Assembly: GCA_009699765.1 (NCBI GenBank)
Contig: WLNN01000002.1
Span: 1-28,140, forward strand
Reading direction: 5' to 3'
DNA: 28,140 nt
DNA from: Actinomycetota bacterium
Lineage (GTDB): Bacteria; Actinomycetota; Actinomycetes; Nanopelagicales; Nanopelagicaceae
Below the pieces are notes generated by a model, which saw only the letters and a list, made by a program, of their open reading frames with translations, searched no databases and had not been told where the DNA came from. A program made the position numbers and the translations under genes. Position 1 is the first letter of the stretch; each line of letters begins with the position of its first letter. Below are positions 7,162 through 12,019 of this stretch, one piece after another.

Positions 7162-7929
7162 TTATCTTAGATGAACGACATCCCCCACGGTTACCTCTTC
7201 GCCGCTGGCAAGTATGAGCGCTCCAGTATTCGAGATATCAACGGCACGAGAATTGAGAACCTTGCCGTCTGGCAGAGTTACCTCTACATCTGAGCCGATG
7301 GTCGCCGATGCAAATCTATATTCAGCGAGAAAGCTCTTGTCGTTCTCCCACATTTCAAGATTGATCTCAAAATGGTTAATGATTGTCGCAAGAATTACGT
7401 TGCGGTCTAATTCGGTAAATCCCTCGATAGCAAGTGAAGTTGCATTATCAACTGGCAACTCATCTTCACTCATGCCGACGTTAATACCGATTCCAAGGAC
7501 TACACCTTTGCTGGTTGCTTGCGCAATCATTCCAACAAACTTTTTTCCGCCAATCAATAAATCATTTGGCCACTTAATGTTGATTTCAGTTTGAGGATCC
7601 AAGAGTTGTAAAGCTTCATGAACACTTAGCCCGGCAAGTAGTGTTAGGAATGGCCACTCTTGCTTATCGGCTTTTGGTTCGATGTAAATTGAAAATGTAA
7701 GCGCAGACATCGGTACAGCTGTAAATGTTCGATCTAATCTTCCACGCCCACTACTTTGAAATTCGCTTGCAAGTATTGTTTTAGGAATTGCGGTTCCTGT
7801 ACTCGCGAGTTGAAACAAATCATCTTGAGTGGAACCGGTGACTTCAACCACGCTTACCCGCCAGTACCGCGAGATTTCCTTCGTTAGCAGTGATTTATCA
7901 AGTGGCGCTCTTGGCGCATCTATACCCAT
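7162..7929 (-). CDS. birA: Biotin--[acetyl-CoA carboxylase] ligase
   Basis: A 255-residue biotin protein ligase that makes biotinyl-AMP and attaches biotin to the lysine of the BCCP domain. SSGRGRLDR (about 59-67) is the GRGR biotinyl-AMP loop, IKWPNDLLIGGKKFVGMI (118-135) is the KWPND core and LGIGINVG (145-152) is the third conserved block. It lacks the N-terminal winged-helix domain of E. coli BirA, so it is a monofunctional group I ligase and probably not a repressor. The frame is open upstream into the divergent gene, but ATG 7929 gives the expected length and lies 7 nt after a TAAGGT -10. Its substrate, the carboxylase alpha subunit with its biotin site, is encoded in the operon transcribed in the opposite direction. 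Confidence 0.94.
   Translation of the reverse strand: MGIDAPRAPLDKSLLTKEISRYWRVSVVEVTGSTQDDLFQLASTGTAIPKTILASEFQSSGRGRLDRTFTAVPMSALTFSIYIEPKADKQEWPFLTLLAGLSVHEALQLLDPQTEINIKWPNDLLIGGKKFVGMIAQATSKGVVLGIGINVGMSEDELPVDNATSLAIEGFTELDRNVILATIINHFEINLEMWENDKSFLAEYRFASATIGSDVEVTLPDGKVLNSRAVDISNTGALILASGEEVTVGDVVHLR
7164..7169 (-). promoter_or_regulatory. -10 element, leaderless promoter of purK, inside birA
   Basis: Minus-strand TAAGAT ends 6 nt before the purK GTG. It is written across the last birA codons (CTA AGA TAA), sharing its final T with the first base of the birA stop codon. Confidence 0.5.
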
Positions 7930-7935
7930 GACTAG

Positions 7936-7942
7936 TACCTTA
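7936..7942. promoter_or_regulatory. Shared near-symmetric -10 element for birA and pccB
   Basis: The 7-bp sequence TACCTTA contains TACCTT on the plus strand (7936-7941), ending 6 nt before the pccB ATG at 7948. It contains TAAGGT on the minus strand (7942-7937), ending 7 nt before the birA ATG at 7929. The whole gap between the two start codons is 18 bp, so one element appears to serve both directions with leaderless mRNAs. TTGGCG at 7911-7916 is a possible plus-strand -35, with a long 19-bp spacer. Confidence 0.55.
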
Positions 7943-7947
7943 TGCAC

Positions 7948-9519
7948 ATGAGCCATGATCTGCATACCACCGCCGGAAAAATTGAAGACCTCCGCGCTCG
8001 AATTGATGATGCCGTTAACGCAGGATCTGCCCGCGCCGTTGAAAAGCAGCATGCCAAAGGCAAAAAGACTGCACGTGAGCGTATTGAGATGCTGGTAGAT
8101 CCAGATTCTTTTACTGAAATTGATGAGTTTGCTCGCCACCATGCAACTAATTTCGGCATGGAAAAGAATCGTCCCTACGGTGACGGAGTTGTAATTGGAA
8201 CTGCAACGGTAGATGGTCGCCCAATCGCGCTCTACTCACAGGACTTCACGGTCTTTGGTGGCTCCCTTGGTGAAGTTCATGCAGATAAAATTGTAAAGAT
8301 TGCAGACTTTGCGCTGAAGTCAGGGATTCCACTTATTGGAATCAATGACTCTGGCGGAGCGCGCATTCAAGAGGGAGTTGCATCTCTCAACGGTTACGGA
8401 AAAATCTTCCGGCTAAACACTCGCTCATCCGGCGTTATTCCTCAAATTTCATTAATCCTTGGCCCATGCGCTGGAGGTTCTGCATACTCTCCAGCACTGA
8501 CTGACTTCACTGTTATGGTGAAGGAGACTTCAAATATGTTTATTACCGGCCCTGATGTAATCAAGACTGTCACCGGCGAAGATGTTGGGATGGAAGAGCT
8601 CGGTGGAGCTTTCACTCACAACACAAAATCAGGAAATGCGCACTACATGGCTGATTCAGAAGCTGATGCAATTGATTATGTGAAAGCACTTCTCTCGTAC
8701 TTGCCATCAAATAATATGGACGGCTCCCCTGTTTTGCCTCCTACTGAAACACTTGAGAAGAAGGCTTCGGATACAGCGCTCAACACTTTGATCCCTGATA
8801 GCCCGAATCAGCCATACGATATGAAAGTTTTAATTCAAGCTATTGTTGATGAAGGCGAATTCCTAGAAGTGCATTCTCTATATGCGCCAAATATAGTTGT
8901 TGGCTTTGCACGAATTGAAGGTCAATCAATTGGAATAATCGCTAACCAGCCAGCACAATTAGCTGGAACTTTAGATATTAATTCATCAGAGAAAGCCGCT
9001 CGATTCTTGCGATTCTGCGATGCGTTTAATATTCCAATTCTTACCCTTGTAGATGTACCTGGATTCTTGCCTGGTACAGAGCAAGAGTGGAATGGCATCA
9101 TTCGCCGCGGAGCAAAATTGCTCTATGCCTACGCTGAAGCATCTGTTCCACTTGTAACTCTCATTACCCGAAAAGCCTACGGTGGAGCTTTTATCGTCAT
9201 GGGCTCTAAGTACCTCGGTAGTGATATTAACTTCGCTTGGCCAAGCGCTGAAATCGCCGTAATGGGTGCTCAAGGTGCTGTAAATATTTTGTATCGCAAG
9301 GAAATTGCAGAGTCAAAAAATGTTGATGCCACTCGCAAAGAATTAGTTGAGGATTACACCGAGAAATTCTCAAATCCTTATCTTGCTGCAGAGCGCGGAA
9401 CAATTGATAGCGTGATCGAACCTGAGGAGTCACGCCAATACATCACAAAAGCCTTCCGGACTTTGAAAACAAAGCGCGATATCTTGCCTGCGCGCAAGCA
9501 CGGAAATATTCCGCTATAA
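7948..9519 (+). CDS. pccB: Acyl-CoA (acetyl/propionyl-CoA) carboxylase carboxyltransferase beta subunit
   Basis: A 523-residue carboxyltransferase that moves the carboxyl group from carboxybiotin to an acyl-CoA. Crotonase-fold motifs include [38 protein letters not shown] and [16 protein letters not shown] in the N-terminal half. The C-terminal half has [29 protein letters not shown] and the terminal basic KHGNIPL. Length and motifs match actinobacterial AccD5/PccB enzymes. Two in-frame ATGs lie at 7942 and 7948; I chose 7948 because the -10 TACCTT ends exactly 6 nt before it. The stop codon is followed directly by the epsilon-subunit ATG. Whether acetyl-CoA or propionyl-CoA is preferred cannot be decided by eye. 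Confidence 0.95.
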
Positions 9520-9702
9520 ATGAAATTTACAGTTGCGTCAGGGCACCCAACAGAAGAAGAGTTAATTGCCCTTCAAGTTGTACTTGCCAATCACAAAAAG
9601 GTTGAGTTGAAGCCTGTGATCAAACGGAGCATCTTCGGACTTCCACAATTACGCCAGCCTTTGCCTCATCAGGTGACATTCGGCGCAAGAAAGTTCGATT
9701 AA
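9520..9702 (+). CDS. accE: Acyl-CoA carboxylase epsilon subunit (AccE/PccE)
   Basis: A 60-residue protein. VASGHPTEEELIALQVVLA (about 5-23) matches the GxPTxEElAAl helix that defines the small epsilon subunits of actinobacterial acyl-CoA carboxylases, which stabilise the alpha-beta complex. The C-terminus is basic (KRSIFGLPQLRQPLPHQVTFGARKF), also normal for the family. The ATG starts on the base right after the carboxyltransferase stop codon, and the TAA overlaps the Maf ATG (TAATG), so translation is coupled along the operon. Position between beta subunit and Maf is the conserved actinobacterial arrangement. Confidence 0.88.
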   Translation: MKFTVASGHPTEEELIALQVVLANHKKVELKPVIKRSIFGLPQLRQPLPHQVTFGARKFD

Positions 9703-10304
9703 TGCCACGTATCGTTCTTGCTTCACAATCTACTTCACGCCGCCGATTGCTCGAAGGTGCGGGAATTACTCCAACCGTTTTGGTAAGCCATGTTGATGAG
9801 GAGACAGAGTTCTTTAACTCAATGACACCCTCAGATATGGTGATTGCGCTTGCGATTTCAAAAGCCCACACTGTGCGAGAGAAGATTGATTACCCTGCAA
9901 TCATTATTGGATGCGATTCAACATTTGATGTTGATGGAGTCTCTTTTGGTAAGCCTGGTACTCCTGAAATTGCTATCGAGCGAGCCAAGAAAATAAGCGG
10001 CCGCACTGGTTTGCTTCATACCGGTCATTGCATCATCGACACTGCGCAAGGAATCGAAATTGCAGATCGCGTAACTACAAAAGTTACTTTCACAGATATG
10101 AGCGATGTAGAGATAGCTGACTACGTGGCATCTGGTGAGCCGCTACATGTTGCAGGCGGATTCACTCTTGATGGATTTGGCTCTCCGTTTATTCCAGTAA
10201 TTGAGGGCGATTACACCAATGTTGTTGGGCTATCGATGCCTTTTCTTCTTAAAGCAATGAAGCAACTTGGATATTCTTGGCCGCAAGTAAAGGAGATGCG
10301 ATGA
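9702..10304 (+). CDS. maf: Maf-like nucleoside triphosphate pyrophosphatase
   Basis: A 200-residue Maf/HAM1-superfamily protein. The N-terminal phosphate loop is [19 protein letters not shown], matching the LASxSxxRxxLL motif. SHVDEE follows, [13 protein letters not shown] holds the catalytic Asp region and [22 protein letters not shown] the KPxxxxxAxxxLxxLSG block. Maf proteins hydrolyse non-canonical or modified NTPs to monophosphates, and some are linked to arrest of cell division. It overlaps the preceding accE stop (TAATG) and the following carboxylase alpha start (ATGA), so it is an integral gene of the carboxylase operon, as in Mycobacterium. Which nucleotide it cleaves is not evident. 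Confidence 0.93.
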
Positions 10305-12019
10305 AACGCGTACTGATAGCAAATAGAGGCGAAATCGCACTTCGTGTTATTCGTGCCTGCAAGGACCACGGCCTCGAGTCTGTTGCCATGTATTCTGAGG
10401 AAGATCGCGACGCCCTTCATGTGAAGAGCGCTGACTTTGCTTATTCTTTAGATGGAACGGTCGCAAAAGATACTTACCTTAATATTCCAAAAATTATTAA
10501 CCTCGCCAAAAAAGCAGGTGCAGATGCAGTGCACCCTGGGTACGGGTTCTTATCTGAGAACGCGAATTTTGCGCAGGCTGTAATTGATGCCGGATTAATC
10601 TGGATTGGTCCTTCCCCTGCTGCAATTAGTGCTCTTGGAGATAAAGTTTCAGCACGTCGAATTGCAGCCGCAGCTGGTGCTCCACTTGTTGCAGGCACCA
10701 AAGATCCCGTTGAAACTGCTGATGAAGTAGTTGCATTCGCAAAAGAGTTTGGATTACCTGTCGCAATTAAAGCTGCCTTTGGTGGCGGTGGTCGAGGTCT
10801 CAAAGTTGCACGTAATCTAGAAGAAATTCCAGAGCTTTATGCATCTGCTGTACGTGAAGCAATTGCAGGTTTTGGGCGCGGAGAGTGCTTCGTAGAACGC
10901 TACCTCGATAAACCACGTCACGTAGAGACTCAAGTTCTTGCCGATAAATTCGGTCATGCTGTAGTTGTATCGACTCGTGATTGTTCCTTACAGCGACGTC
11001 ACCAGAAGTTAGTTGAAGAGGCGCCAGCACCATTTCTGACTGATGAACAGAATGCAGAGCTTTATCGCTCATCAAAGGCGATTATGAAAGAAGCTGGCTA
11101 CGTTGGCGCAGGCACCTGCGAATTTTTAGTTGGTCTCGACGGAACCATCTCTTTCCTTGAGGTCAATACAAGACTTCAAGTTGAGCACCCAGTCTCTGAA
11201 GAGGTGACTGGAATCGACTTGGTGCGCCAGCAATTTAGAATTGCGATGGGAGAACCTCTGGGTTTTGAAGATCCAATAGTTCGCGGACACTCGATTGAGT
11301 TCCGTATTAACGGTGAAGATCCTGGCCGATCATTTCTTCCAGCGCCTGGGCGCATTACTGAGTGGCAAATACCAACTGGTCCTGGAGTGCGTGTGGATGC
11401 GGGATTCCGCAAGGGAGATGTCATAGGTGGAAATTTCGATTCACTCCTTGCAAAATTAATCGTGACCGGCGCAACTCGTGAAGAAGCAATTCAACGTTCA
11501 CGTCGTGCACTAGCTGAGTTTGAGATTGAAGGTCTCGCAACCGCAATTCCATTCCATCGAGCAATTGTTGATGATCCAAACTACACCGAGGTATTTAAGG
11601 TCTACACAAGTTATATCGAAAATGAATTCGTAAATGAGATTCCTGCGTTTTCAATAGGTGAGCTAGATATTCAGACGACTGCTGCCACAGAAAAATTAGT
11701 TGCAGAGGTGAATGGAAAGCGATTTGAAATTCTTGTTCATGCACCAGAACCAGTCGTAAAGCGTCACCGAGCAAAGCAAGCTTCCGCCGCTGGCGCTGCT
11801 GGAGATGGTCTTCCTAGCCCTATGCAGGGCACCGTCGTAAAGATTGCCGTCATCGAAGGTCAGAGCGTTGAGGCTGGAGATTTAGTAATCGTTCTTGAGG
11901 CGATGAAGATGGAACAGCCACTAAATGCCCATAAGAGTGGTGTGATTAAGAACTTAAAGGCAGTTGTCGGCGAGACAGTTTCTAGTGGCTCCATTCTCTG
12001 TGACATTATTGAGGCATGA
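10301..12019 (+). CDS. pccA: Acyl-CoA carboxylase alpha subunit: biotin carboxylase plus BCCP
   Basis: A 572-residue fused biotin carboxylase and biotin carrier protein. [18 protein letters not shown] opens the biotin carboxylase N-domain; [14 protein letters not shown] and the Gly-rich [12 protein letters not shown] belong to the ATP-grasp region, and [18 protein letters not shown] holds active-site residues. The C-terminal lipoyl-type domain contains EAMKMEQPL with the biotin acceptor at Lys536. It carboxylates biotin with ATP and bicarbonate. The ATG at 10301 is preceded by a strong AAGGAG five bases upstream, inside the maf gene; the longer frame start at 10277 has no such site. This is one of the few genes here with a clear Shine-Dalgarno. 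The stop overlaps the next gene (ATGA). Its biotin is attached by the BirA encoded divergently. Confidence 0.96.

Follow-up and report, generated by a model that had tools for sequence, protein, structure and literature searches.

How are two divergent genes transcribed when 18 nt separate their start codons and their products form one functional pair? The question is raised by birA, which encodes a biotin protein ligase, and pccB (accD), which encodes a carboxyltransferase subunit, in a stretch of 28,140 nucleotides from a member of the Nanopelagicaceae (Actinomycetota); this whole stretch is called the window here. A preliminary description had proposed that both genes share one symmetric −10 element and that both are leaderless. 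The genes concerned are listed below with the evidence for each.

7162..7929, minus strand: birA, biotin protein ligase without a helix-turn-helix domain (Pfam PF03099, PF16917, PF02237)
7948..9519, plus strand: pccB/accD, carboxyltransferase subunit (Pfam PF01039)
9520..9702, plus strand: short open reading frame where the small carboxylase subunit AccE is expected, named from its position (sequence)
9702..10304, plus strand: maf-like open reading frame, named from the locus order
10277..12019, plus strand: accA, biotin carboxylase with a biotin carrier domain (Pfam PF00289, PF02786, PF02785, PF00364)

The birA ATG is the complement of 7929–7927, with its reading frame open farther upstream, and the pccB ATG occupies 7948–7950. 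A Pfam search gave no match for the frame at 9520..9702. The start of accA may lie downstream of 10277, and its product is expected to be the substrate of BirA. The preliminary description had this BirA without a DNA-binding domain, and Pfam agrees: it finds the ligase and C-terminal domains alone, and no helix-turn-helix or other N-terminal DNA-binding domain, the part that distinguishes the regulator type of BirA, a repressor of the biotin operon.

A symmetric 7-mer between the two start codons

The proposed elements of the intergenic gap are given below, where g1, g3 and g4 denote the window's genus and two related genera and G016 is a complete genome of the window's genus.

7936..7942, no strand: symmetric 7-mer TACCTTA (TANNNTA), proposed common −10 element (sequence and conservation)
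7936..7941, plus strand: proposed −10 hexamer TACCTT for pccB, ending 6 nt before the ATG at 7948 (sequence, conservation, genome-wide 6-nt signature)
7937..7942, minus strand: proposed −10 hexamer TAAGGT for birA, ending 7 nt before the ATG at 7929 (sequence, conservation in g1, g3 and g4)
7932..7942, no strand: conserved block CTAGTACCTTA around the 7-mer (conserved columns in g1, g3 and g4)
7948, plus strand: predicted leaderless transcription start of pccB, the A of its ATG (spacing and preceding pyrimidine, the pattern of leaderless-like G016 genes)
7929, minus strand: predicted leaderless transcription start of birA, the A of its ATG (same grounds as for pccB)
7942..7944, plus strand: alternative in-frame pccB ATG overlapping the 7-mer, an unlikely start (absent from most relatives)

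When the sequence was read again, TACCTTA was found 6 nt from pccB and 7 nt from birA, just as first described. The TA at 7936–7937 pairs reciprocally with the TA at 7941–7942, which makes the element symmetric. What had been missed is that the last A of TACCTTA doubles as the first base of the in-frame pccB ATG at 7942. Because that ATG abuts the −10 and most relatives are without the codon, 7948 is the better start. The predicted starts at 7929 and 7948 are 19 bp apart, and a C precedes both start codons. Counting against a promoter is that TACCTT and TAAGGT each agree with TATAAT at three of six positions.

In leaderless genes, which are numerous in Actinobacteria, TANNNT lies about 12 nt ahead of the start (PMC3160421, PMC3898074). 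On the pccB side, the window has this motif at the 6-nt spacing and no Shine-Dalgarno-like stretch; on the birA side, it has it at 7 nt. To place these distances we used G016, cut into 68 stretches, in which a simple gene caller that weighs nothing but coding score and start codon when choosing starts gave 1177 genes. TANNNT ends 6 nt ahead of the start in 197 of these and 7 nt ahead in 71, with about 10 at other offsets. The two peaks are more than chance and are the sequence signature of leaderless genes. The distances at birA–pccB are thus the two usual spacings of G016, that of birA being the second most used. A pyrimidine stands directly before the start in 82% of the 6-nt and 89% of the 7-nt leaderless-like genes, and the base following TANNNT, where T is favored, is an A in 40/268. 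In the window itself, 9 of the 26 genes examined carry the signature at a start no more than 45 nt from the listed one.

Among the divergent gene pairs of G016, 45/148 have leaderless-like elements on both sides, by a permissive test that accepted every in-frame ATG or GTG up to 120 nt from the called start. A 7-mer common to both leaderless-like genes occurs in 2 of the 148. Five other divergent pairs (L137, L146, L158, L167 and L169) have leaderless-like −10 hexamers with one TA in common, an offset commoner than any other among the divergent pairs of this genome and one that implies starts 23–25 bp apart.

Conservation in the family and the bases held fixed

The family set comprised 137 loci with both genes, out of 142 genomes with a BirA match; the five genomes left out had weak, partial or contig-edge matches. 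TANNNT lies 5–9 nt before the pccB start in 133/137 loci, at 6 nt in 132 of them, and it is symmetric (TANNNTA) in 121/137. A leaderless-like element serves birA in 88/137, and both genes are leaderless-like on the same 7-mer in 78/137, counts that do not represent independent events, as loci within one genus are related. This arrangement is complete in g1 (38/38), g3 (1/1), g4 (20/20), g5 (1/1), g10 (5/5) and g13 (5/5), partial in g7 (1/3), g8 (6/26) and g16 (1/24), and absent from all loci read of g6 (3), g9 (4), g11 (5), g12 (1) and g15 (1). A further named set, in which 60 of 80 loci were kept (20 had one gene missing from the locus), has 41/60 symmetric sites and 28/60 with a 7-mer common to both genes; it is not independent, since it has at least three genomes in common with the family set. 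Its 7-mers with other centers, such as TAACGTA and TAACCTA, are still symmetric.

Within g1, g3 and g4, the reverse TANNNT lies 7 nt from the birA start in all 59 loci, and TA..TA and both spacings are invariant. Position 5 of the hexamer varies between T and G, so that the exact 7-mer is TACCTTA in 12/59 and TACCGTA in 47/59. Conservation in close relatives had been set beforehand as a test of the proposal, and the result divides: the TA..TA frame and its spacings held throughout, and the exact letters TACCTTA did not. The earlier interpretation survives in the same measure, as one symmetric −10-like element with two leaderless-looking genes by sequence, its exact 7-mer being variable.

Could the 7-mer be conserved for translation instead? 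The AAGG within TAAGGT is Shine-Dalgarno-like, and its distance from the birA ATG would be workable; the open frame upstream would allow a longer BirA in which the 7-mer is coding sequence. We hold either version, a leadered birA mRNA or a longer protein, to be very improbable. The same hexamer reads TACGGT in 47/59 loci, which is not Shine-Dalgarno-like, while its TA and T are invariant. As coding sequence, the block is too uniform: its codon third positions in the birA frame are identical in 52 to 59 of the 59 loci. The 7-mer is constrained as DNA, its TA..TA being fixed in 59 loci in which the N-terminal coding columns of birA are poorly conserved.

Other bases are fixed as well. A G at −13 and CC at −10/−9 (window 7932–7939 and aligned columns) occur in 59/59 loci of g1, g3 and g4; both lie inside CTAGTACC and are invariant though a TANNNT promoter could do without them, which suggests a further constraint. 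It is these bases that speak for CTAGTACCKTA being mainly the operator of a regulator covering both promoters. Other observations make this improbable. The block CTAGTACCNTA is present once in G016; the start regions of that genome (−60 to +10, both strands) hold no one-mismatch site, and their 18 two-mismatch matches fall at varied places. Moreover, other genera and families change the flanks and the center of the block while TA..TA often stays. A regulon with several sites was rejected on the same grounds, the block being single in G016 with no one-mismatch site near starts.

A third alternative is that the 7-mer is used by pccB alone, its symmetry being incidental, and that birA has a promoter of its own within pccB and a leader. 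We judge this unlikely, and evidence within the family falls on both sides. The pccB −10 in 133/137 loci compares with a leaderless-like birA element in 88, and g16 and g11 keep the symmetry in 28/29 loci although their birA mostly starts farther off, being leaderless-like in one. Counting also against the two-way reading, birA does not begin at the site in 43 of the 121 family loci with symmetry (g16 and g8 make up 32 of these), and symmetry itself is lost in 11/26 g8 loci. Against this alternative, the A on which the symmetry depends is uncommon at the one-way promoters of G016 yet present in 59/59 birA–pccB loci of g1, g3 and g4. Symmetry kept in g16 and g11 despite a distant birA start implies that the fit to two leaderless genes is not the sole thing selected.

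Three side observations concern particular relatives. First, all three g6 loci (L126, L130 and L131; estimated pccB starts at 272, 269 and 269 in locus orientation) contain TACCGTA together with a 14-codon frame whose ATG lies 5 nt behind the forward hexamer and whose stop overlaps the pccB ATG; from its sequence, this frame is a possible leaderless micro-ORF coupled to pccB. Second, six genomes of genera g2 and g17 (G001, G018, G030; G017, G029, G041), listed as 94–100% complete, have neither BirA nor PccB at E ≤ 0.001, and ligase and carboxylase may have been lost jointly in these genera. Finally, three MAGs titled Streptomycetaceae or Bifidobacterium breve (L437, L448 and L462) encode a PccB 88–92% identical to that of the window, and their titles look misassigned.

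Recurrence across the class and a control pair

Beyond the family, 136 loci were available from part of the class genomes found, and 88 loci from 28 other families were kept; 43 were dropped because one gene was missing from the locus or too unlike, and 5 as duplicates. TANNNTA occurs in 42 of the 88 birA–accD gaps, in 17/28 families; over 300 dinucleotide shuffles, the mean count was 5.6 and the highest 11. The middle three bases of the 7-mer differ widely among families. Two observations count against the two-way reading here. The motif is absent from the class loci of 11/28 families, among them f4 (0/7), f13 (0/4), f16 (0/12) and f22 (0/10). In f17 (for example L246, L292 and L297), a second, non-symmetric leaderless-like element, TAGGGT, stands 7 nt before a birA ATG in addition to TANNNTA.

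Outside the family, it is birA to which the site is anchored. TANNNT lies 5–9 nt ahead of the birA start in 61/88 class loci, and a symmetric site lies at this distance from an in-frame birA start in 31/88, from 16 families. An accD start also lies 7–9 nt from the site in 10 of these 31 (f9, f11, f14 and f24). In the other 21, one of them without any accD start found, the site is 6–8 nt from the birA start and at least 18 nt from any accD start found, and by a permissive test 18 of the 21 have a candidate accD start with a Shine-Dalgarno-like stretch. These 21 loci, with symmetric sites near birA and far from accD, argue against a 7-mer that belongs to pccB alone.

Is a common symmetric site simply a trait of divergent pairs? 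The control pair nth–crp has a tight common site in 4/30 family loci, and these four all belong to the window's genus. A TANNNTA anywhere between the genes is found in 9/30 family and 2/24 class loci, the class gaps being 146–1280 nt long. As far as one control pair shows, recurrence across families is therefore not a general property of divergent pairs. A generic trait was rejected as the sole cause on this control and on the 2/148 pairs of G016. In the four tight nth–crp loci, among them those of G016 (L194:16900–16918) and L378 (G000:C142), the common 7-mer is TAAACTA or TAAAGTA, and 17 nt separate the starts. Like birA–pccB, nth–crp in the window's genus has a symmetric 7-mer common to divergent starts; its site is limited to that genus, whereas birA–accD sites recur in many families.

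A tree was built from 103 PccB rows, 17 of them chosen from the family and 86 from the class set, which lost two of its 88 as too short. TANNNTA is present in 57 rows, on both sides of the midpoint root, and needs at least 12 trait changes. The tree fits an old element with losses, gains and losses being indistinguishable on it. Taken together, conservation and distribution suggest that the symmetric element is probably a selected and old bidirectional promoter, and that in compact genomes both messengers became leaderless.

Proposed mechanism and known bidirectional promoters

Our answer to the opening question is that TACCTTA is likely to be a single two-way −10 element between birA and pccB, on which both genes would be leaderless and which is probably old. 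The housekeeping sigma factor would read it as a −10 on either strand. The forward reading would start a messenger at the pccB ATG, probably including the genes behind pccB, and the reverse reading would start one at the birA ATG. Within the 7-mer, A2 and T6 would serve both directions, T1 pccB alone and A7 birA alone. One polymerase at a time could occupy the 7-mer, mutual exclusion being expected from the overlap. The sequence itself gives the element, both spacings and a TA..TA that is kept while other bases of the 7-mer change; from these we infer transcription both ways, leaderless 5′ ends and mutual exclusion.

The preliminary description had gone further, to a fixed ratio of birA to pccB expression. 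Such a ratio is not implied by our analysis, which found nothing in the sequence to support it, and it is doubtful because E. coli bidirectional promoters tend to be repressed in one direction when they are activated in the other (PMC12825309). More tentatively, selection across much of the class may have kept the symmetric −10 as a regulator-free device in which the polymerase chooses ligase or carboxylase, damping noise or balancing the pair, and which contracted in streamlined genomes to a gap of 18 bp, both messengers being leaderless.

That divergent transcription can arise from symmetric −10 elements, as the preliminary description stated for bacteria, is borne out by published bidirectional promoters, which are read on both strands, the polymerase picking the orientation (PMC12825309, PMC10268837). 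Their starts on opposite strands are 7–25 bp apart, most often 18 (PMC10268837), which makes 18 bp the commonest arrangement (PMC10268837, PMC12825309); 23 bp is another common distance (PMC12825309). At five such promoters tested in E. coli by Warman et al. (2026), basal activity was too low for polymerase competition (PMC12825309). In M. tuberculosis, prpD and Rv1129c are adjacent, divergent and both leaderless, and a figure legend calls closely juxtaposed divergent promoters common (PMC3898074).

Neither leaderless genes nor this type of promoter is new. A common birA–accD promoter or a leaderless bidirectional promoter was not found in the open-licence literature, among the matches listed. 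As far as that literature goes, among those matches, the novelty lies in a symmetric −10 that two leaderless-looking genes with paired functions would use together, and in the return of such a site at this pair in many families. Two-way promoters of the symmetric kind were discovered recently and have so far been put down to the near-symmetry inherent in the −10 element. That one functional gene pair has such a site in family after family points to selection on some of these promoters, and birA–pccB offers a small, testable system in which single bases are assigned to each direction.

Set against these systems as their published accounts present them, birA–pccB resembles bidirectional promoters in having one −10 for two strands and predicted starts about 18 bp apart. 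It shares motif and distance with the leaderless genes of PMC3160421 and PMC3898074, which are described there gene by gene. It is like prpD/Rv1129c in being a pair of divergent neighbors, leaderless there and leaderless-looking here, the passage describing that pair naming no common −10. It is unlike the leaderless genes in that one 7-mer would serve two opposite leaderless-looking genes, and unlike the bidirectional promoters in that both genes look leaderless, form one functional pair and recur with their site in many families.
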